Shown piece by piece: positions 7,130-29,755 of a stretch of DNA of 58,240 nt. Below the pieces are notes generated by a model, which saw nothing but the letters and a program-made list of their open reading frames with translations, did no database searches and was not told the origin of the DNA. Source of the DNA: Planctomycetota bacterium (GTDB lineage: Bacteria > Planctomycetota > Phycisphaerae > Phycisphaerales > UBA5793); assembly GCA_963205185.1 (NCBI GenBank), contig CAUJHZ010000073.1, positions 1 through 58,240 on the forward strand, given 5' to 3'. Numbering within the stretch: the stretch's first letter is position 1; each line of letters opens with the position of its first letter. The position numbers and the translations under genes were made by a program.

Positions 7130-7840
7130 TCAGTTCCGACCGGCGCCCCTCCATCGCCGGCCGCCGATGGCCGCGGCACCGAGTCCGAGCAGCGCCAGGC
7201 TCGCCGGCGCCGGAACGCCGTAGATCTGGGTCAGCCGAAAATCGACGGCCGCACCCGGATCGAGAAAGACGCTGATGCTCTGCAGATGGGCGAGATCGAG
7301 CAGGCCGATGCCGGAGAAGTCCGACATGGCGAACGAGAGCGTCTGCGGCCCCGGGCTGTCGAGCGACCTGGTGAGCAGCGCCGCCGAGTTGCCGTCAAAG
7401 AGGGTTACGGTAACCGGCAGCGGCTGTCCGTTGGCAAAGTCGAAGCGGCCGAACTCGATCATGATGTCGGTGATGGCGGAGAAGTCCGCGTTCAGTCCGG
7501 CCCCGTCCTCGTCGTAGAGCAGGTCCCAGTCGCCGCGCGCGCCGGCGGTCGAGGAGTAATCGAGGATCATGCCGAAGTTCGGCACGATCGCGGCCTGGAC
7601 GAAGTCGAGACCGAGCGTTTCGAGGAACGTGGCGCGAACGGTCGAGTGCCGCGAACCGCCGATGACGTTGGTCAGCCCGAGTTCGTTGATGTCGATCGAG
7701 TCGATGGTCGTGATGACGACCGGCCAGGGTGTCGGGTCGTCGACCGATGAAAAGTCGTCAATGAGGACGTCCGCGCACGCGGCGGACGTCATGCCACCCG
7801 CGATGGCGAAGATCGCGAGTCTGGCGCGCCATTCTTTCAT
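7130..7840 (-). CDS. PEP-CTERM sorting domain protein, copy 2
   Basis: This 236-residue paralogue of the gene at 6086-6796 shares its length and long matching blocks such as IDDFS, DDPTPWPV, GGSRHST and GAGLNADFS. A signal peptide ends near ACA at residue 23. The C-terminus has VPAPASLALLGLG, a short hydrophobic run and a basic RRWRG end, a PEP-CTERM variant. ATG 7840 follows a strong GGAGGGAG site. Its product is expected to be exported and processed by an exosortase, which is not in this window. The two copies probably arose by tandem duplication. Each seems to be transcribed on its own, since a hairpin separates them. Confidence 0.85.
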   Translation of the reverse strand: MKEWRARLAIFAIAGGMTSAACADVLIDDFSSVDDPTPWPVVITTIDSIDINELGLTNVIGGSRHSTVRATFLETLGLDFVQAAIVPNFGMILDYSSTAGARGDWDLLYDEDGAGLNADFSAITDIMIEFGRFDFANGQPLPVTVTLFDGNSAALLTRSLDSPGPQTLSFAMSDFSGIGLLDLAHLQSISVFLDPGAAVDFRLTQIYGVPAPASLALLGLGAAAIGGRRWRGAGRN

Positions 7841-8009
7841 GAAACTCCCTCCAATCTGCGACTGCGTTGCGCGTGAGTGTCCGGTTCCCGCGGACCGGTT
7901 CCAACATATGAGTGTGCATTTATTGGACAGTTTGTCAATGCGAAGGACCGTGGAAGTGCTCGGATCAGGGTCGTTTCCCTCATCTCGATCTGATTGACTC
8001 TGCATCGGA

Positions 8010-25885: not shown

Positions 25886-25914
25886 GCGGCCCCCATGCGT
25901 TCGTGCAGGTTTGC

Positions 25915-25920
25915 TATGAT
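25915..25920 (+). promoter_or_regulatory. -10-like TATGAT before rnr
   Basis: TATGAT lies 19 nt before ATG 25940 and 28 nt before ATG 25949. It gives a short leader for the RNase R mRNA. Confidence 0.35.
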
Positions 25921-25948
25921 CTGCTTTGCCCTCTCGTGGATGGATCGC

Positions 25949-28384
25949 ATGCCCCTTCGTTTCAAGAGTCGCGTCCTCGCTCACCTGCAGGACCATCGCT
26001 ACGAACCGGTCGGTTTCGATCTGCTTGCCGAGCAGGTCGGCGTCGAGCCGGCGGACCTGCCCGAGTTTGAACAGGCGCTCGATGAACTGATGGCGGCGGG
26101 GCAGATCACCTCGGCCGCCGGCGGCGAGTTCATGCTGCCGCCCATCGGTCGCGAACTCATCGGCAAGATCCGTGTCAACCCCAAGGGTTTCGGGTTCATC
26201 ATTCCCGAGGCGCCCAATCGCGAGGGCGATCTGTTCGTGCCTCCGGGCGCCACGGGCACGGCGGTGAGCGGCGATCGTGTTCGCGCCCGAGTGGTGCGCA
26301 GCCGTGGCCGCGGCGGCGCGCCTCCCGGCGCATCGCCCTACACCGGCGAGGTCGTCGAGATCCTCCAGCGCGCCAAGTCGTCGTACGTCGGCACGCTGCG
26401 CCGCTTTCAGCAGCACTGGCTCGTCGAACCCGACGACCGCCAACTGCACGACATGGTGCGTGTGCGCGATGTCGGGGCCAAGAACGCCCGCGAAGGCGAC
26501 AAGGTCGTCGTCGAGATGATCCGCTATCCCGACGCCGGCGAGGGGGGCGAAGGCGTGATCATCAAGCGCCTCGGCGAAGCGGGTCTGCCCGACGTTGAAA
26601 CGCAGGCGGTCATTCACACCTACAGCCTGCCGGGCGAGTTTCCCGAAGCGGCGCTCGACCAGGCTGCGGACATGGCCCGCGCCTTTGCCGACACCGAGCA
26701 GTTCATCGAGGGGCGCGAAGACCTGCGCGAGCAGTTCATCATCACCATCGACCCGCCCGACGCTCGCGACTTCGACGATGCGATTTCGATCCGGCGGCTC
26801 GACGACGGCGGCTGGGAACTGGGCGTGCACATCGCCGACGCTTCGACGTTTGTGACGCTCGACTCGCCGCTCGATCTCGAAGCGCGGCAGCGGGCCAACA
26901 GCGTCTACCTGCCGCGCCACGTGATCCCGATGCTGCCCGAGGTGCTCAGCAACGGCGTGTGCTCGCTGCAGGAGGGCGTCGATCGACTCACCAAGTCCGT
27001 CTTCATCCGCTACGACGGCAAGGGGCAGGTGCGCGACGAGCGCTACTGCAACTCCGTTATTCGTTCGAGCAAGCGGCTGACCTATCTGGAGGCGGAGCAT
27101 CTCATCCTGGGAAATGCTCAGGAAGCGCGCAAGCACTCGATGAGCGAAACGGACTACCCCGAAGCGCTGCTGCCCACGCTCAAACTGATGGATGAACTGG
27201 CCAAAGTGCTTCGCCGCCGCCGCACGAAAGACGGCATGATCGTCCTCACGCTGCCGGAGGTCGAACTCATCTTCGACGAGCAGGGCCATGTCATCGGCGC
27301 CGAACCCGAAGACGACGCTTCGACGCACGGCCTGATCGAGATGTTCATGGTCGAGGCGAACGAAGCGCTGGCGCGACTCTTCGACCGCCTGAACGTGCCG
27401 ATCCTCCGGCGCACGCACCCGGACCCGTCCACGTTCGATCTCGGCGAGTTGCGGCAGTACTTTCGCGTGGCGGGTCTGAATCTGCCCAAGAGCCCGACGC
27501 GCTTTGAACTGCAGCACGTCCTTGAAGCAACGCGCGGCACGCCGCGCCAGCAGGCGGTGCACCTGGCGATTCTCAAGAGCCTGACCAAGGCGGAGTATTC
27601 GCCGGCGATGATCGGCCACTTCGCCCTGGCCAGCGCGCACTACGCCCACTTCACCAGCCCGATCCGCCGGTATCCCGACCTCGTTTTGCACCGGCAACTG
27701 GCGGCATATCTCGAACAGACGCGCAACGGCAGCGAGCGGCCTCGCGGCAAGGGCTACCGCCGCATCGGCAATACTCTGCGCAAGGACAAGCGCTGTCCCG
27801 ACGAAGGTCGGCTCATCGAGATGGGCACGCGCTGCAACGAAGCCGAGCGCAACGCCGAGATGGCCGAACGCAGCCTGCGCAACTTCCTCGTGCTTCAGTT
27901 CATCGCCGAGCGCCACCAGGGCGACGTGATGGACGGCGTGGTGGTGGGCGTTTCCGAATCGGCGGTGTTCGTGCAACTCGACCAGTGTCTCGTCGAGGGC
28001 TTCGTGAATATCCGCGATCCCGAGGCGTTCGAGACGAGCGAGTCGGGCGGCCGGCGCAGCCGCGGCGACCGGCAGGGCCGGTGGCGCATCAATCAGCAGA
28101 CCGGCGCGCTCACCAGCGAGAGCGGGGCGACGATCCAGATCGGCGACCGCCTGCAGGTGCGCATCATGCTCGTCGATCCGCCGGCTCGGCGGATGGATTT
28201 GCGCATCGTCGGCAAGGCCGCAGCGCCCTCCAAACCCCGTGAGTCGAACCAGAACCACAAAGGGCACAAAGGCACGAAGAATGCACCAAGGGCAGCCGGT
28301 AAGACAGGGCAGCCGGGTAGAAGCAAGCCTACGCAGAAAAAGACAATGCAGAAAAAGGGCAAACGAACCAAGAAGCGCCGCTGA
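25949..28384 (+). CDS. rnr: Ribonuclease R
   Basis: This exoribonuclease of about 811 residues contains an N-terminal helix-turn-helix-like region (residues 1-65) and cold-shock-type OB domains around GKIRVNPKGFGFIIPE. The RNB catalytic domain has DPPDARDFDDAIS at about 268-280, whose aspartates bind the metal. An S1 domain lies at about 655-760. The enzyme degrades structured RNA 3' to 5'. The tail is very basic and is partly encoded by an inserted repeat (28253-28278) that reads NHKGHKGTK, followed by a Lys-rich end. ATG 25940 is an alternative start three codons upstream. Confidence 0.93.
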   Translation: MPLRFKSRVLAHLQDHRYEPVGFDLLAEQVGVEPADLPEFEQALDELMAAGQITSAAGGEFMLPPIGRELIGKIRVNPKGFGFIIPEAPNREGDLFVPPGATGTAVSGDRVRARVVRSRGRGGAPPGASPYTGEVVEILQRAKSSYVGTLRRFQQHWLVEPDDRQLHDMVRVRDVGAKNAREGDKVVVEMIRYPDAGEGGEGVIIKRLGEAGLPDVETQAVIHTYSLPGEFPEAALDQAADMARAFADTEQFIEGREDLREQFIITIDPPDARDFDDAISIRRLDDGGWELGVHIADASTFVTLDSPLDLEARQRANSVYLPRHVIPMLPEVLSNGVCSLQEGVDRLTKSVFIRYDGKGQVRDERYCNSVIRSSKRLTYLEAEHLILGNAQEARKHSMSETDYPEALLPTLKLMDELAKVLRRRRTKDGMIVLTLPEVELIFDEQGHVIGAEPEDDASTHGLIEMFMVEANEALARLFDRLNVPILRRTHPDPSTFDLGELRQYFRVAGLNLPKSPTRFELQHVLEATRGTPRQQAVHLAILKSLTKAEYSPAMIGHFALASAHYAHFTSPIRRYPDLVLHRQLAAYLEQTRNGSERPRGKGYRRIGNTLRKDKRCPDEGRLIEMGTRCNEAERNAEMAERSLRNFLVLQFIAERHQGDVMDGVVVGVSESAVFVQLDQCLVEGFVNIRDPEAFETSESGGRRSRGDRQGRWRINQQTGALTSESGATIQIGDRLQVRIMLVDPPARRMDLRIVGKAAAPSKPRESNQNHKGHKGTKNAPRAAGKTGQPGRSKPTQKKTMQKKGKRTKKRR

Positions 28385-28441
28385 TCAGATCTGGATTTCA
28401 TCCATTTGTGCCCGCTCTGTGCCTTCGTGTCCTTTGTGGTT
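28253..28441. repeat. Inverted-repeat (MITE-like) element at the 3' end of rnr
   Basis: The left arm at 28253-28278 begins AACCACAAAGGGCACAAAGG. The right arm at about 28415-28441, read on the other strand, begins AACCACAAAGGACACGAAGG. The two ends match over about 25 bp with a few mismatches and enclose about 135 bp, including the last 36 codons of rnr. The motif class (CACAAAGG-type repeats) is scattered in many environmental genomes. The element has no gene of its own. Confidence 0.7.
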
Positions 28442-28471
28442 GACGCAGCACCATCGATTCGGCAACCCGCC

Positions 28472-29266
28472 TCAGCACCGGCCGAGGAATTCGCGGCGCA
28501 CATCCGCCAGCGCCTTGAAACTCGCGCGCCAACTCTGCACCGAGGTGTGGTCGATCTCCGCGGAGATCACCGTCGGCGCGTCTCCCGCCTGCGCGATCAC
28601 TTCGCCCTTGGGGTCGATAATGCGCGAGCCGCCGGCATAGGGCAGGTAGGGGTCCTCGCCGCAGCGGTTCAAGCCAACGACATACGCCTGGTTCTCGATG
28701 GCGCGAGCGCTGAGCAGCGTGAGCCAGTGGTGCTGGCGCGGCGAAGGCCAGGAAGCGCCGATGGTGAACATCTCCGCGCCGCGCTCGATCGCTGCCAGGC
28801 GCCAGATCTCCGGAAAGCGCAGGTCGTAGCAGATCAGCGGACAGACCTTGATGCCGTGCCAGTCGAACGTGACGATCTCGCTGCCGCCGCGAAACTCCTC
28901 CGGCTCACGTCCGCCGCTGAAGGGAAAGATCTTCGAATAGCGGCAGATGAGTTCGCCATCGGGATTGAAGACCACCGCGTCGTTGGTCGCTTTGCCACTG
29001 GGGTTGGGCCGCTGCACCGAGGCGCCCTGCACGAACGCGCCCCATCGCCGCGCCGCCGCAGCGCACCACTTCTCGCTCGCGCCGCCGGTCGCCTGCTCGG
29101 CCGTCACCTTGGTGTTCAGGCTGAAGCCGACGTCGAACATTTCGGGCAAGACAATGAGCGAGCCGCGCGGCACAGAGGCCTGCTCGACCATGCGCTGCAC
29201 GATCGCGTGGTTCGCGGCCTTGTCTTCCCAGACGATGTCGAACTGAACGGCAAACACCTGCGGCAT
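28472..29266 (-). CDS. Carbon-nitrogen hydrolase (nitrilase superfamily), omega-amidase-like
   Basis: This 264-residue enzyme has the intact nitrilase catalytic triad: Glu42 in [11 protein letters not shown], Lys112 in [10 protein letters not shown] and Cys146 in [12 protein letters not shown]. The FDVGFS and [11 protein letters not shown] segments resemble YafV/omega-amidases, which hydrolyse 2-oxoglutaramate-type amides in metabolite repair. ATG 29266 is preceded by TATCGT with a 5-nt gap, a leaderless layout. It diverges from dut with 48 bp between the two starts. Confidence 0.87.
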
Positions 29267-29271
29267 GCACA

Positions 29272-29277
29272 ACGATA
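29272..29277 (-). promoter_or_regulatory. -10-like TATCGT before the nitrilase-type gene
   Basis: On the minus strand TATCGT ends 5 nt before ATG 29266, with no ribosome site. Confidence 0.35.
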
Positions 29278-29302
29278 TCAGCCCTGCACCCGCGCGACCG
29301 GA

Positions 29303-29308
29303 TACGAT
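29303..29308 (+). promoter_or_regulatory. -10-like TACGAT before dut
   Basis: TACGAT ends 6 nt before ATG 29315, with no ribosome site. This is the leaderless pattern. Confidence 0.4.
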
Positions 29309-29314
29309 GCAGCC

Positions 29315-29755
29315 ATGACCCTCGAACTGCGCCTGGAACGCATCAAGTCCGACGTCCCTCTGCCGCGTTACCAGACCGAGCACGCCGCGGGCCTCGATCT
29401 GCACGCCGCGCTTGATGCGCCGCTCGTGCTCGAGCCGGGCGACATCAGGCTCATTGCCTGCGGCTTTCGGATGGCCGTGCCGGTGGGCTACGAGGCTCAA
29501 GTGCGGCCGCGTTCGGGCCTGGCGAGCAAGCACGGCATCTCGATGCCCAACGCACCGGGCACGATCGACGCGGACTACCGCGGCGAGGTCTGCGTGCCGC
29601 TGATCAACCTCGGCCGCGAGCCGTTCACCGTCGAGCCGCACATGCGCATCGCGCAGATGGTCATCGCGCCCGTCGCGCACGCGAAGGTGGTCGAAGTGCA
29701 GGCGCTCGACGAAACGCAGCGCGGCCAGGGCGGCTTCGGGTCAACGGGGTGCTGA
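29315..29755 (+). CDS. dut: dUTP diphosphatase
   Basis: This 146-residue trimeric-type dUTPase converts dUTP to dUMP, keeping uracil out of DNA and feeding thymidylate synthesis. All five motifs are present: AGLDLHA near residue 25, [11 protein letters not shown] near 65, [10 protein letters not shown] near 82 including the catalytic Asp, RIAQMVI near 111, and the C-terminal [11 protein letters not shown]-loop-like motif. The start at 29315 gives the standard length. Confidence 0.95.

Follow-up and report, generated by a model that had tools for sequence, protein, structure and literature searches.

The window, a stretch of 58,240 nucleotides that constitutes contig C73 of a 4.55 Mb planctomycete draft genome (G000), carries the gene rnr at 25895..28384 on the forward strand. 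This encodes an RNase R of 829 residues with the Pfam domains RNB, CSD2, OB_RNB and S1. Convergent to it lies a carbon-nitrogen hydrolase gene (28472..29680, reverse strand; Pfam PF00795), whose start codon is uncertain and whose domain comprises residues 144-385 of the open reading frame (ORF). An inverted repeat spans the 3' end of rnr and faces the hydrolase stop codon (28472-28474). A repeat search recovered two arms of 40 nucleotides (28253-28292 and 28402-28441), 78% complementary and separated by 109 nucleotides, and an independent arm profile matched both (28254-28294, E 2e-9, and 28405-28440, E 4e-9), which bears out the position given for the repeat in an initial annotation of this DNA. 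Comparison with other copies shows the arms running approximately 12 nucleotides further outward, such that the whole element covers about 28242-28452 with ends of some 50 nucleotides, its outer bounds being judged by eye with an accuracy of 1-2 nucleotides. It consists of a left terminal inverted repeat (28242..28294, forward strand), an interior of 110 nucleotides (28295..28404, forward strand) and a right terminal inverted repeat (28405..28452, reverse strand) that ends about 18-19 nucleotides from the hydrolase stop. The arms, at 40-50 nucleotides and with mismatches, are longer than the 25-bp ends first described.

The left arm is made up of four CAC(A/G)AAGG-type units and about 12 outer nucleotides. 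It is translated as rnr codons from about E783, NHKGHKGTKNAPR included, and the interior provides the remainder of the Lys/Arg-rich RNase R tail as far as the TGA stop codon (28382-28384), which falls within it. The initial annotation had correctly read rnr through the left arm (NHKGHKGTK) and the interior, with the stop just ahead of the right arm, but its count of some 36 codons inside the element has to be raised to about 47 (codons 783-829, approximately) plus the stop. The right arm is non-coding. The sequence CACAAAGG was found three times in the window, every one in the two arms; this count was matched by 12 of 100 shuffles and hence is weak on its own.

The arms belong to a dispersed family of MITE-like elements, as had been suspected, with arm matches in several genomes and with paired copies. 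Counts were made genome-wide with a 19-nucleotide arm pattern allowing at most one mismatch, and with the reversed pattern as control. In G000 the pattern matches at 8 places, including both rnr arms, compared with 1 for the control; among the other species of the genus there are 14 matches against 0 in G003, 27 against 1 in G004, 2 against 0 in G001 and only 2 against 1 in G002. Most of the G004 arms occur as inverted pairs. A pattern with three mismatches was left out of the counting because it is loose (62 matches against 32 for the control in G000). Across about 50 nucleotides, 37 arms from non-rnr copies align on the plan of the rnr left arm, with four units and approximately 12 outer nucleotides; these arms, all from G001-G004, made up the profile HMM (38 were gathered and one apparent chance match was removed).

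Copies that lack an ORF are short, with 192-212 bp at rnr and 144-245 bp for 18 others. On GC-based gene calling, which is crude, 13 of the 16 other paired copies have a called gene no more than 50 nucleotides away on each side, and three of these 13 overlap the called gene by 10-25 nucleotides; the three copies placed otherwise are G004 C6-10k, C77b and C45. Single-arm sites without a detectable partner also exist, one of 11 being inside a called ORF, and the neighbour of a single arm at G000:C29 is presumably IS110-like. When copies were compared, the interiors of most were unrelated to one another, the exceptions being two ORF-bearing copies that align partly and four G004 copies with a common inner repeat. 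This second, inner inverted repeat, of GCCGCAAAGAGGC type, is found at L089:2043-2285, L089:4422-4660, L093:1796-2040 and L098:2009-2252.

Insertion as a whole unit can be seen at G004:C6 (12.5k), where a 239-bp copy is absent from all four congeners and the flanks meet within about 4 nucleotides or overlap. For two sites compared with four congeners, the arms and the interior are absent together in 6 of 8 comparisons; the other two (G000 and G003) have the interior present and the left arm absent. No target-site duplication was visible in alignments of filled and empty sites, in which the flanks have diverged. A search at the single-arm loci L103 and L016 found no clear empty site, and the L103 arm is also in G000.

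Two family copies of about 510 bp, from G004 and G003, encode a GxxExxY protein of 131-133 residues (TIGR04256/PF13366, PDDEXK_3; E about 1e-40). Both sit at the junction between cystathionine synthase and lyase genes (CBS-CGS; gene names read from the ORFs), which measures 24 nucleotides in G001 versus 572 in G004 and is split between contigs in G002. At the same junction in G000 (L312, G000:C37, about 9.3-9.9 kb) there is a GxxExxY gene whose arms have a different sequence. Within the order, TIGR04256 was detected in 87 of 151 sampled genomes, 86 of them above its cut-off. The 30 best-scoring loci, one per genome and no random sample, were fetched, and of the 29 that were testable all except L271 have flanking inverted repeats that score above all 100 shuffles. 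These repeats score at least 18 in 23 of the 29, a level that none of 101 windows taken at random from rnr loci reached. The four-helix/S23 family TIGR02436, present in 79 of the 151 genomes, gave a similar result: inverted repeats flank 28 of the 30 genes fetched (the exceptions are L301 and L306), with scores of at least 18 in 26 of 30. Units of the form CRCNVAG, defined after the GxxExxY arms had been seen, occur in 25 of 28 GxxExxY repeats versus 1 of 28 TIGR02436 repeats, the latter (L278-L307) being built from different units such as AGGCATC or GGGAATC. GxxExxY genes between CRCNVAG inverted repeats are found at L091:2007-2540, L104:2002-2537 and L248-L277.

Named plasmids from outside the phylum have significant repeats flanking GxxExxY at four of eight loci (Sphingomonas, Gemmatirosa, Bacteroides and Bernardetia), the loci of Treponema, Persicobacter, Fusobacteria and Prevotella having none that are significant. 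A scan of viral contigs with GxxExxY found no relative. We conclude that a small mobile element probably carries GxxExxY, a little-known protein family. The rnr element likewise has arms of CRCNVAG-type units in inverted orientation, and its ends are common to the GxxExxY-coding copies. Its 110-nucleotide interior contains no GxxExxY ORF, so that the rnr copy is at most a short derivative of the family. On the Sphingomonas plasmid (L317), the GxxExxY gene and its inverted repeats lie between fabD and fabG, in the same direction.

At rnr, the profile matched both arms in three of the five species of the genus, with 31.4 and 30.4 bits in G000, 28.5 and 36.2 in G004, and 19.1 and 23.4 in G002. 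One arm was recovered in G003, where the right arm, without one 9-nucleotide unit, scored 20.8 bits and the left arm was matched weakly (4.3 bits, E 0.63). The rnr locus of G001 had no match above 4.1 bits, and this best score fell in another part of the locus. The RNases R of G001, G002 and G004 are 80-83% identical to that of the window. A scan of 105 further rnr loci returned matches at L110 and L111, which are G002 and G004 again, and included G001 again as L109; there were no arm matches in the 102 loci from outside the genus, some of which are the same contig under two names. The record behind L111 (WYBR01000109.1) is labelled Vicinamibacteraceae, probably wrongly, since its RNase R is 82% identical to that of this planctomycete genus.

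The rnr tree places G001 within the arm-bearing species with moderate support (86/88), and on rnr alone G001 as outgroup was not rejected (p 0.15). With RpoC added (partial in G004 and G010), the tree is ((G002,G004),(G001,(G000,G003))), with 99/98 on the branch and an AU p of 0.013 against G001 outside. Because the combined data reject a position of G001 outside the arm-bearing species, the genus ancestor most likely already had the arms, and G001, which retained its basic tail, later lost them; the age of the element within the genus can be taken as moderately well established. The tail end of G001 can be aligned with that of G002 (z 4.1, reached by 0 of 500 shuffles) and, less strongly, with that of G004 (z 2.3), which agrees with ancestral arms then lost in G001; no alignment was found with the tail ends of G000 or G003. 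From the conserved RRMDL motif to the hydrolase stop there are 270 nucleotides in G000, 274 in G003, 261 in G004, 243 in G002 and 235 in G001, and since these lengths are so close none of the five species shows an empty rnr site.

A basic C-terminus is general among the relatives of this enzyme. The 107 rnr loci yielded 96 distinct C-termini, five from the genus (two others ran off the contig and nine were duplicates), and in 95 of them the last 40 residues include 11-21 Lys/Arg, the median of all being 16. The core of the window's RNase R has about 5 per 40 residues. A motif-based parse gave a median tail length of 61 residues (78 loci parsed, 22 others unparsed). The element had been put forward as the reason for the basic tail of RNase R, but with 95 of 96 C-termini basic, that of the arm-less G001 included, the proposal is not supported in that form, and a tail-adding insertion is only partly supported as the source of the enzyme's basic character. 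Relatives with the same tail and no inverted repeat had been named as the refuting case; G001, with a 51-residue tail, 20 Lys/Arg and no detectable arm, is such a relative in the wider sense, but it probably once had the element.

The sole exception among the 96 is the sister genus G005, with 4 Lys/Arg in its last 40 residues. Its RNase R ends seven codons past the RRLDL motif and so has no C-terminal tail; G005 is a single genome in which the rnr match is in three pieces, and among the searched relatives it alone represents a second genus of the family. A Lys-rich insert was noted inside the S1 region of this tail-less protein (L040). In Escherichia coli, as a review describes (PMC4042491), the Lys-rich C-terminus of RNase R is essential for recruitment to stalled ribosomes, which would give the lineage a reason to keep such a tail. 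The insertion may, as the initial annotation suggested, have been useful.

We propose, at roughly even chances, that a short copy of the GxxExxY family inserted whole in the genus ancestor and that rnr, by reading through it, had its basic tail replaced or re-created. The repeat would be a short, ORF-less copy of a small inverted-repeat mobile family whose ORF-bearing members encode the GxxExxY protein, and it would have entered whole into the stretch separating rnr from the convergent hydrolase gene. Having lost or lacked its former stop, rnr would now continue through the left arm and the interior. The interior would thus be inserted DNA, its frame held Lys/Arg-rich by selection, like the RNase R tails of the order generally. 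Such an element would have replaced or re-created a basic tail, with no new property added, and the arms would have disappeared later from G001 while the tail stayed.

Spacing, size and the tail-less sister genus favour a tail re-created from inserted DNA. The outer ends of the element lie about 41 nucleotides after the RRMDL motif and about 9-19 nucleotides from the hydrolase stop, a spacing to both genes that agrees with the 13 of 16 other paired copies near called genes. If rnr once stopped early, as it does in G005, this position calls for no deletion. Several observations weigh against a re-created tail. The rnr interior reads 45-52% Lys/Arg; in other copies most frames have a far smaller fraction, and only two short ones approach it (fractions of 0.48 and 0.40). 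The interiors of G000 and G004 at rnr show no alignment beyond composition (z -0.1). That of G004 has a weak similarity to another copy (1 of 2000 shuffles), picked out of 144 comparisons.

The near-universality of basic tails favours inheritance instead, and we hold it somewhat below even chances that an ancestral basic tail persists here, the arms having landed either side of its end and the element adding only the approximately 17 codons of the left arm. This could have come about through separate insertions of single arms, which do occur without a detectable partner, or the element could have inserted within the tail and the displaced portion then been deleted. Judged by presence alone, the most parsimonious history is an inherited tail with a single loss in G005, since similar-length basic tails are found in nearly all relatives; moreover, the distance from RRMDL to the hydrolase stop in G001 differs from those of the arm-bearing species by only 8-39 nucleotides. 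When the tail ends of the genus were aligned with 73 outgroup tails, the average similarity was no greater than composition would give (mean z -0.22 to 0.74, versus shuffled sequences), but in the 365 comparisons the single outgroup tails L054, L162 and L059 scored high (z 5.2 and 4.0 for G000, 5.4 for G004), and these alignments may reflect real homology. Inheritance requires, however, two insertions with the spacing and orientation of an element, or one insertion and a matching deletion. Had an inherited tail of about 58 codons been interrupted, its displaced end would be expected outside the element, yet about 10-19 nucleotides remain there. The nearest outgroup, G005, is tail-less, and the joint absence of arms and interior in most of the site comparisons also argues against arms arriving separately. 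Whole insertion with a re-created tail ranks ahead of an inherited tail, though not far ahead.

It is improbable that the inverted repeat has been kept as a 3' hairpin for both convergent mRNAs, acting as a terminator or exonuclease barrier with the tail as a by-product. Compared with shuffles, the region folds better in G000, G004 and G002 (z -2.40, -4.26 and -2.96, respectively; -2.86 for G000 with other bounds) but not in G003 and G001 (z +1.61 and +2.19), and this lack of conservation makes a conserved hairpin role unlikely. The right arm of G003 is short of its 9-nucleotide unit, no T run follows the hairpin, and an Rfam search of 25-31 kb gave nothing beyond one chance-level match, located elsewhere. 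An accidental complementarity between the Lys-coding, purine-rich tail and unrelated sequence downstream of it is very improbable, for although AAG/AAA-rich tails resemble CACAAAGG units by composition and shuffles reach the three matches of the window, both arms were matched by the independent profile in three species and in none of the 102 rnr loci from outside the genus.

Several known systems resemble this family in part. Rickettsia palindromic elements (RPE) are in-frame palindromic repeats inside proteins (review, PMC10969869) and, compared by that description, share with the rnr copy a small palindromic repeat read in frame within an unrelated host protein. RPEs, however, are about 150 bp with a conserved peptide, whereas the interior of the present family varies between copies, most copies checked are intergenic and the larger members encode GxxExxY. 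Like MITE and REP-type elements, the family is short, dispersed, mostly ORF-less and mostly intergenic, with terminal inverted repeats; unlike them, its interiors are not common to most copies and no target-site duplication was seen. The MITEs of Thiomargarita hupL are proposed by their authors to derive from an element with a PD-(D/E)XK nuclease gene (PMC4853749). By that description they are similarly tied to such a gene (PD-(D/E)XK_2, YhgA-type), but it is of PF12784 and not PF13366, and the repeats there are 19-bp inverted repeats with 10-bp direct repeats. The S23 intervening sequence of Coxiella 23S rRNA has been called selfish (PMC4990558) and is described there as an element of about 0.4 kb in which terminal inverted repeats enclose a single small ORF; it differs in encoding an S23/four-helix protein rather than GxxExxY and in its location in rRNA, and within the present order the repeats at TIGR02436 genes are built from units of a different type than those at GxxExxY genes.

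A participation of GxxExxY in mobility is plausible from these associations, with its role as a mobility enzyme putative. Going further, GxxExxY might be the mobility nuclease of elements of about 0.5 kb, TIGR02436 a parallel class, and the rnr copy a member adopted as a ribosome-recruiting tail, a combined reading that we consider possible but rather unlikely. If it were true, a widespread GxxExxY class would act on tandem CRCNVAG ends and the S23/four-helix class would have its own type of end. Since GxxExxY and TIGR02436 are each tied to their own kind of terminal inverted repeat, a mobility role is directly testable. We found no account of the CACAAAGG arms, or of links of GxxExxY or TIGR02436 to repeats, in the open-licence literature, which excludes most subscription papers. 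The rnr locus would be a natural example of inserted DNA that may have become a functional protein tail, with a date inside a single genus.

Among the dispersed sequences, single arms at L006 (G000:C20:35181), L010 and L106 run on into short tandem units resembling AGGCATCGAGG or GGTGAGG, and these continuations resemble arms of the TIGR02436 type. Further short dispersed repeats lie at L089:233-273, 311-351 and 7784-7872; among the matches listed, which are numerous, most are in G002.
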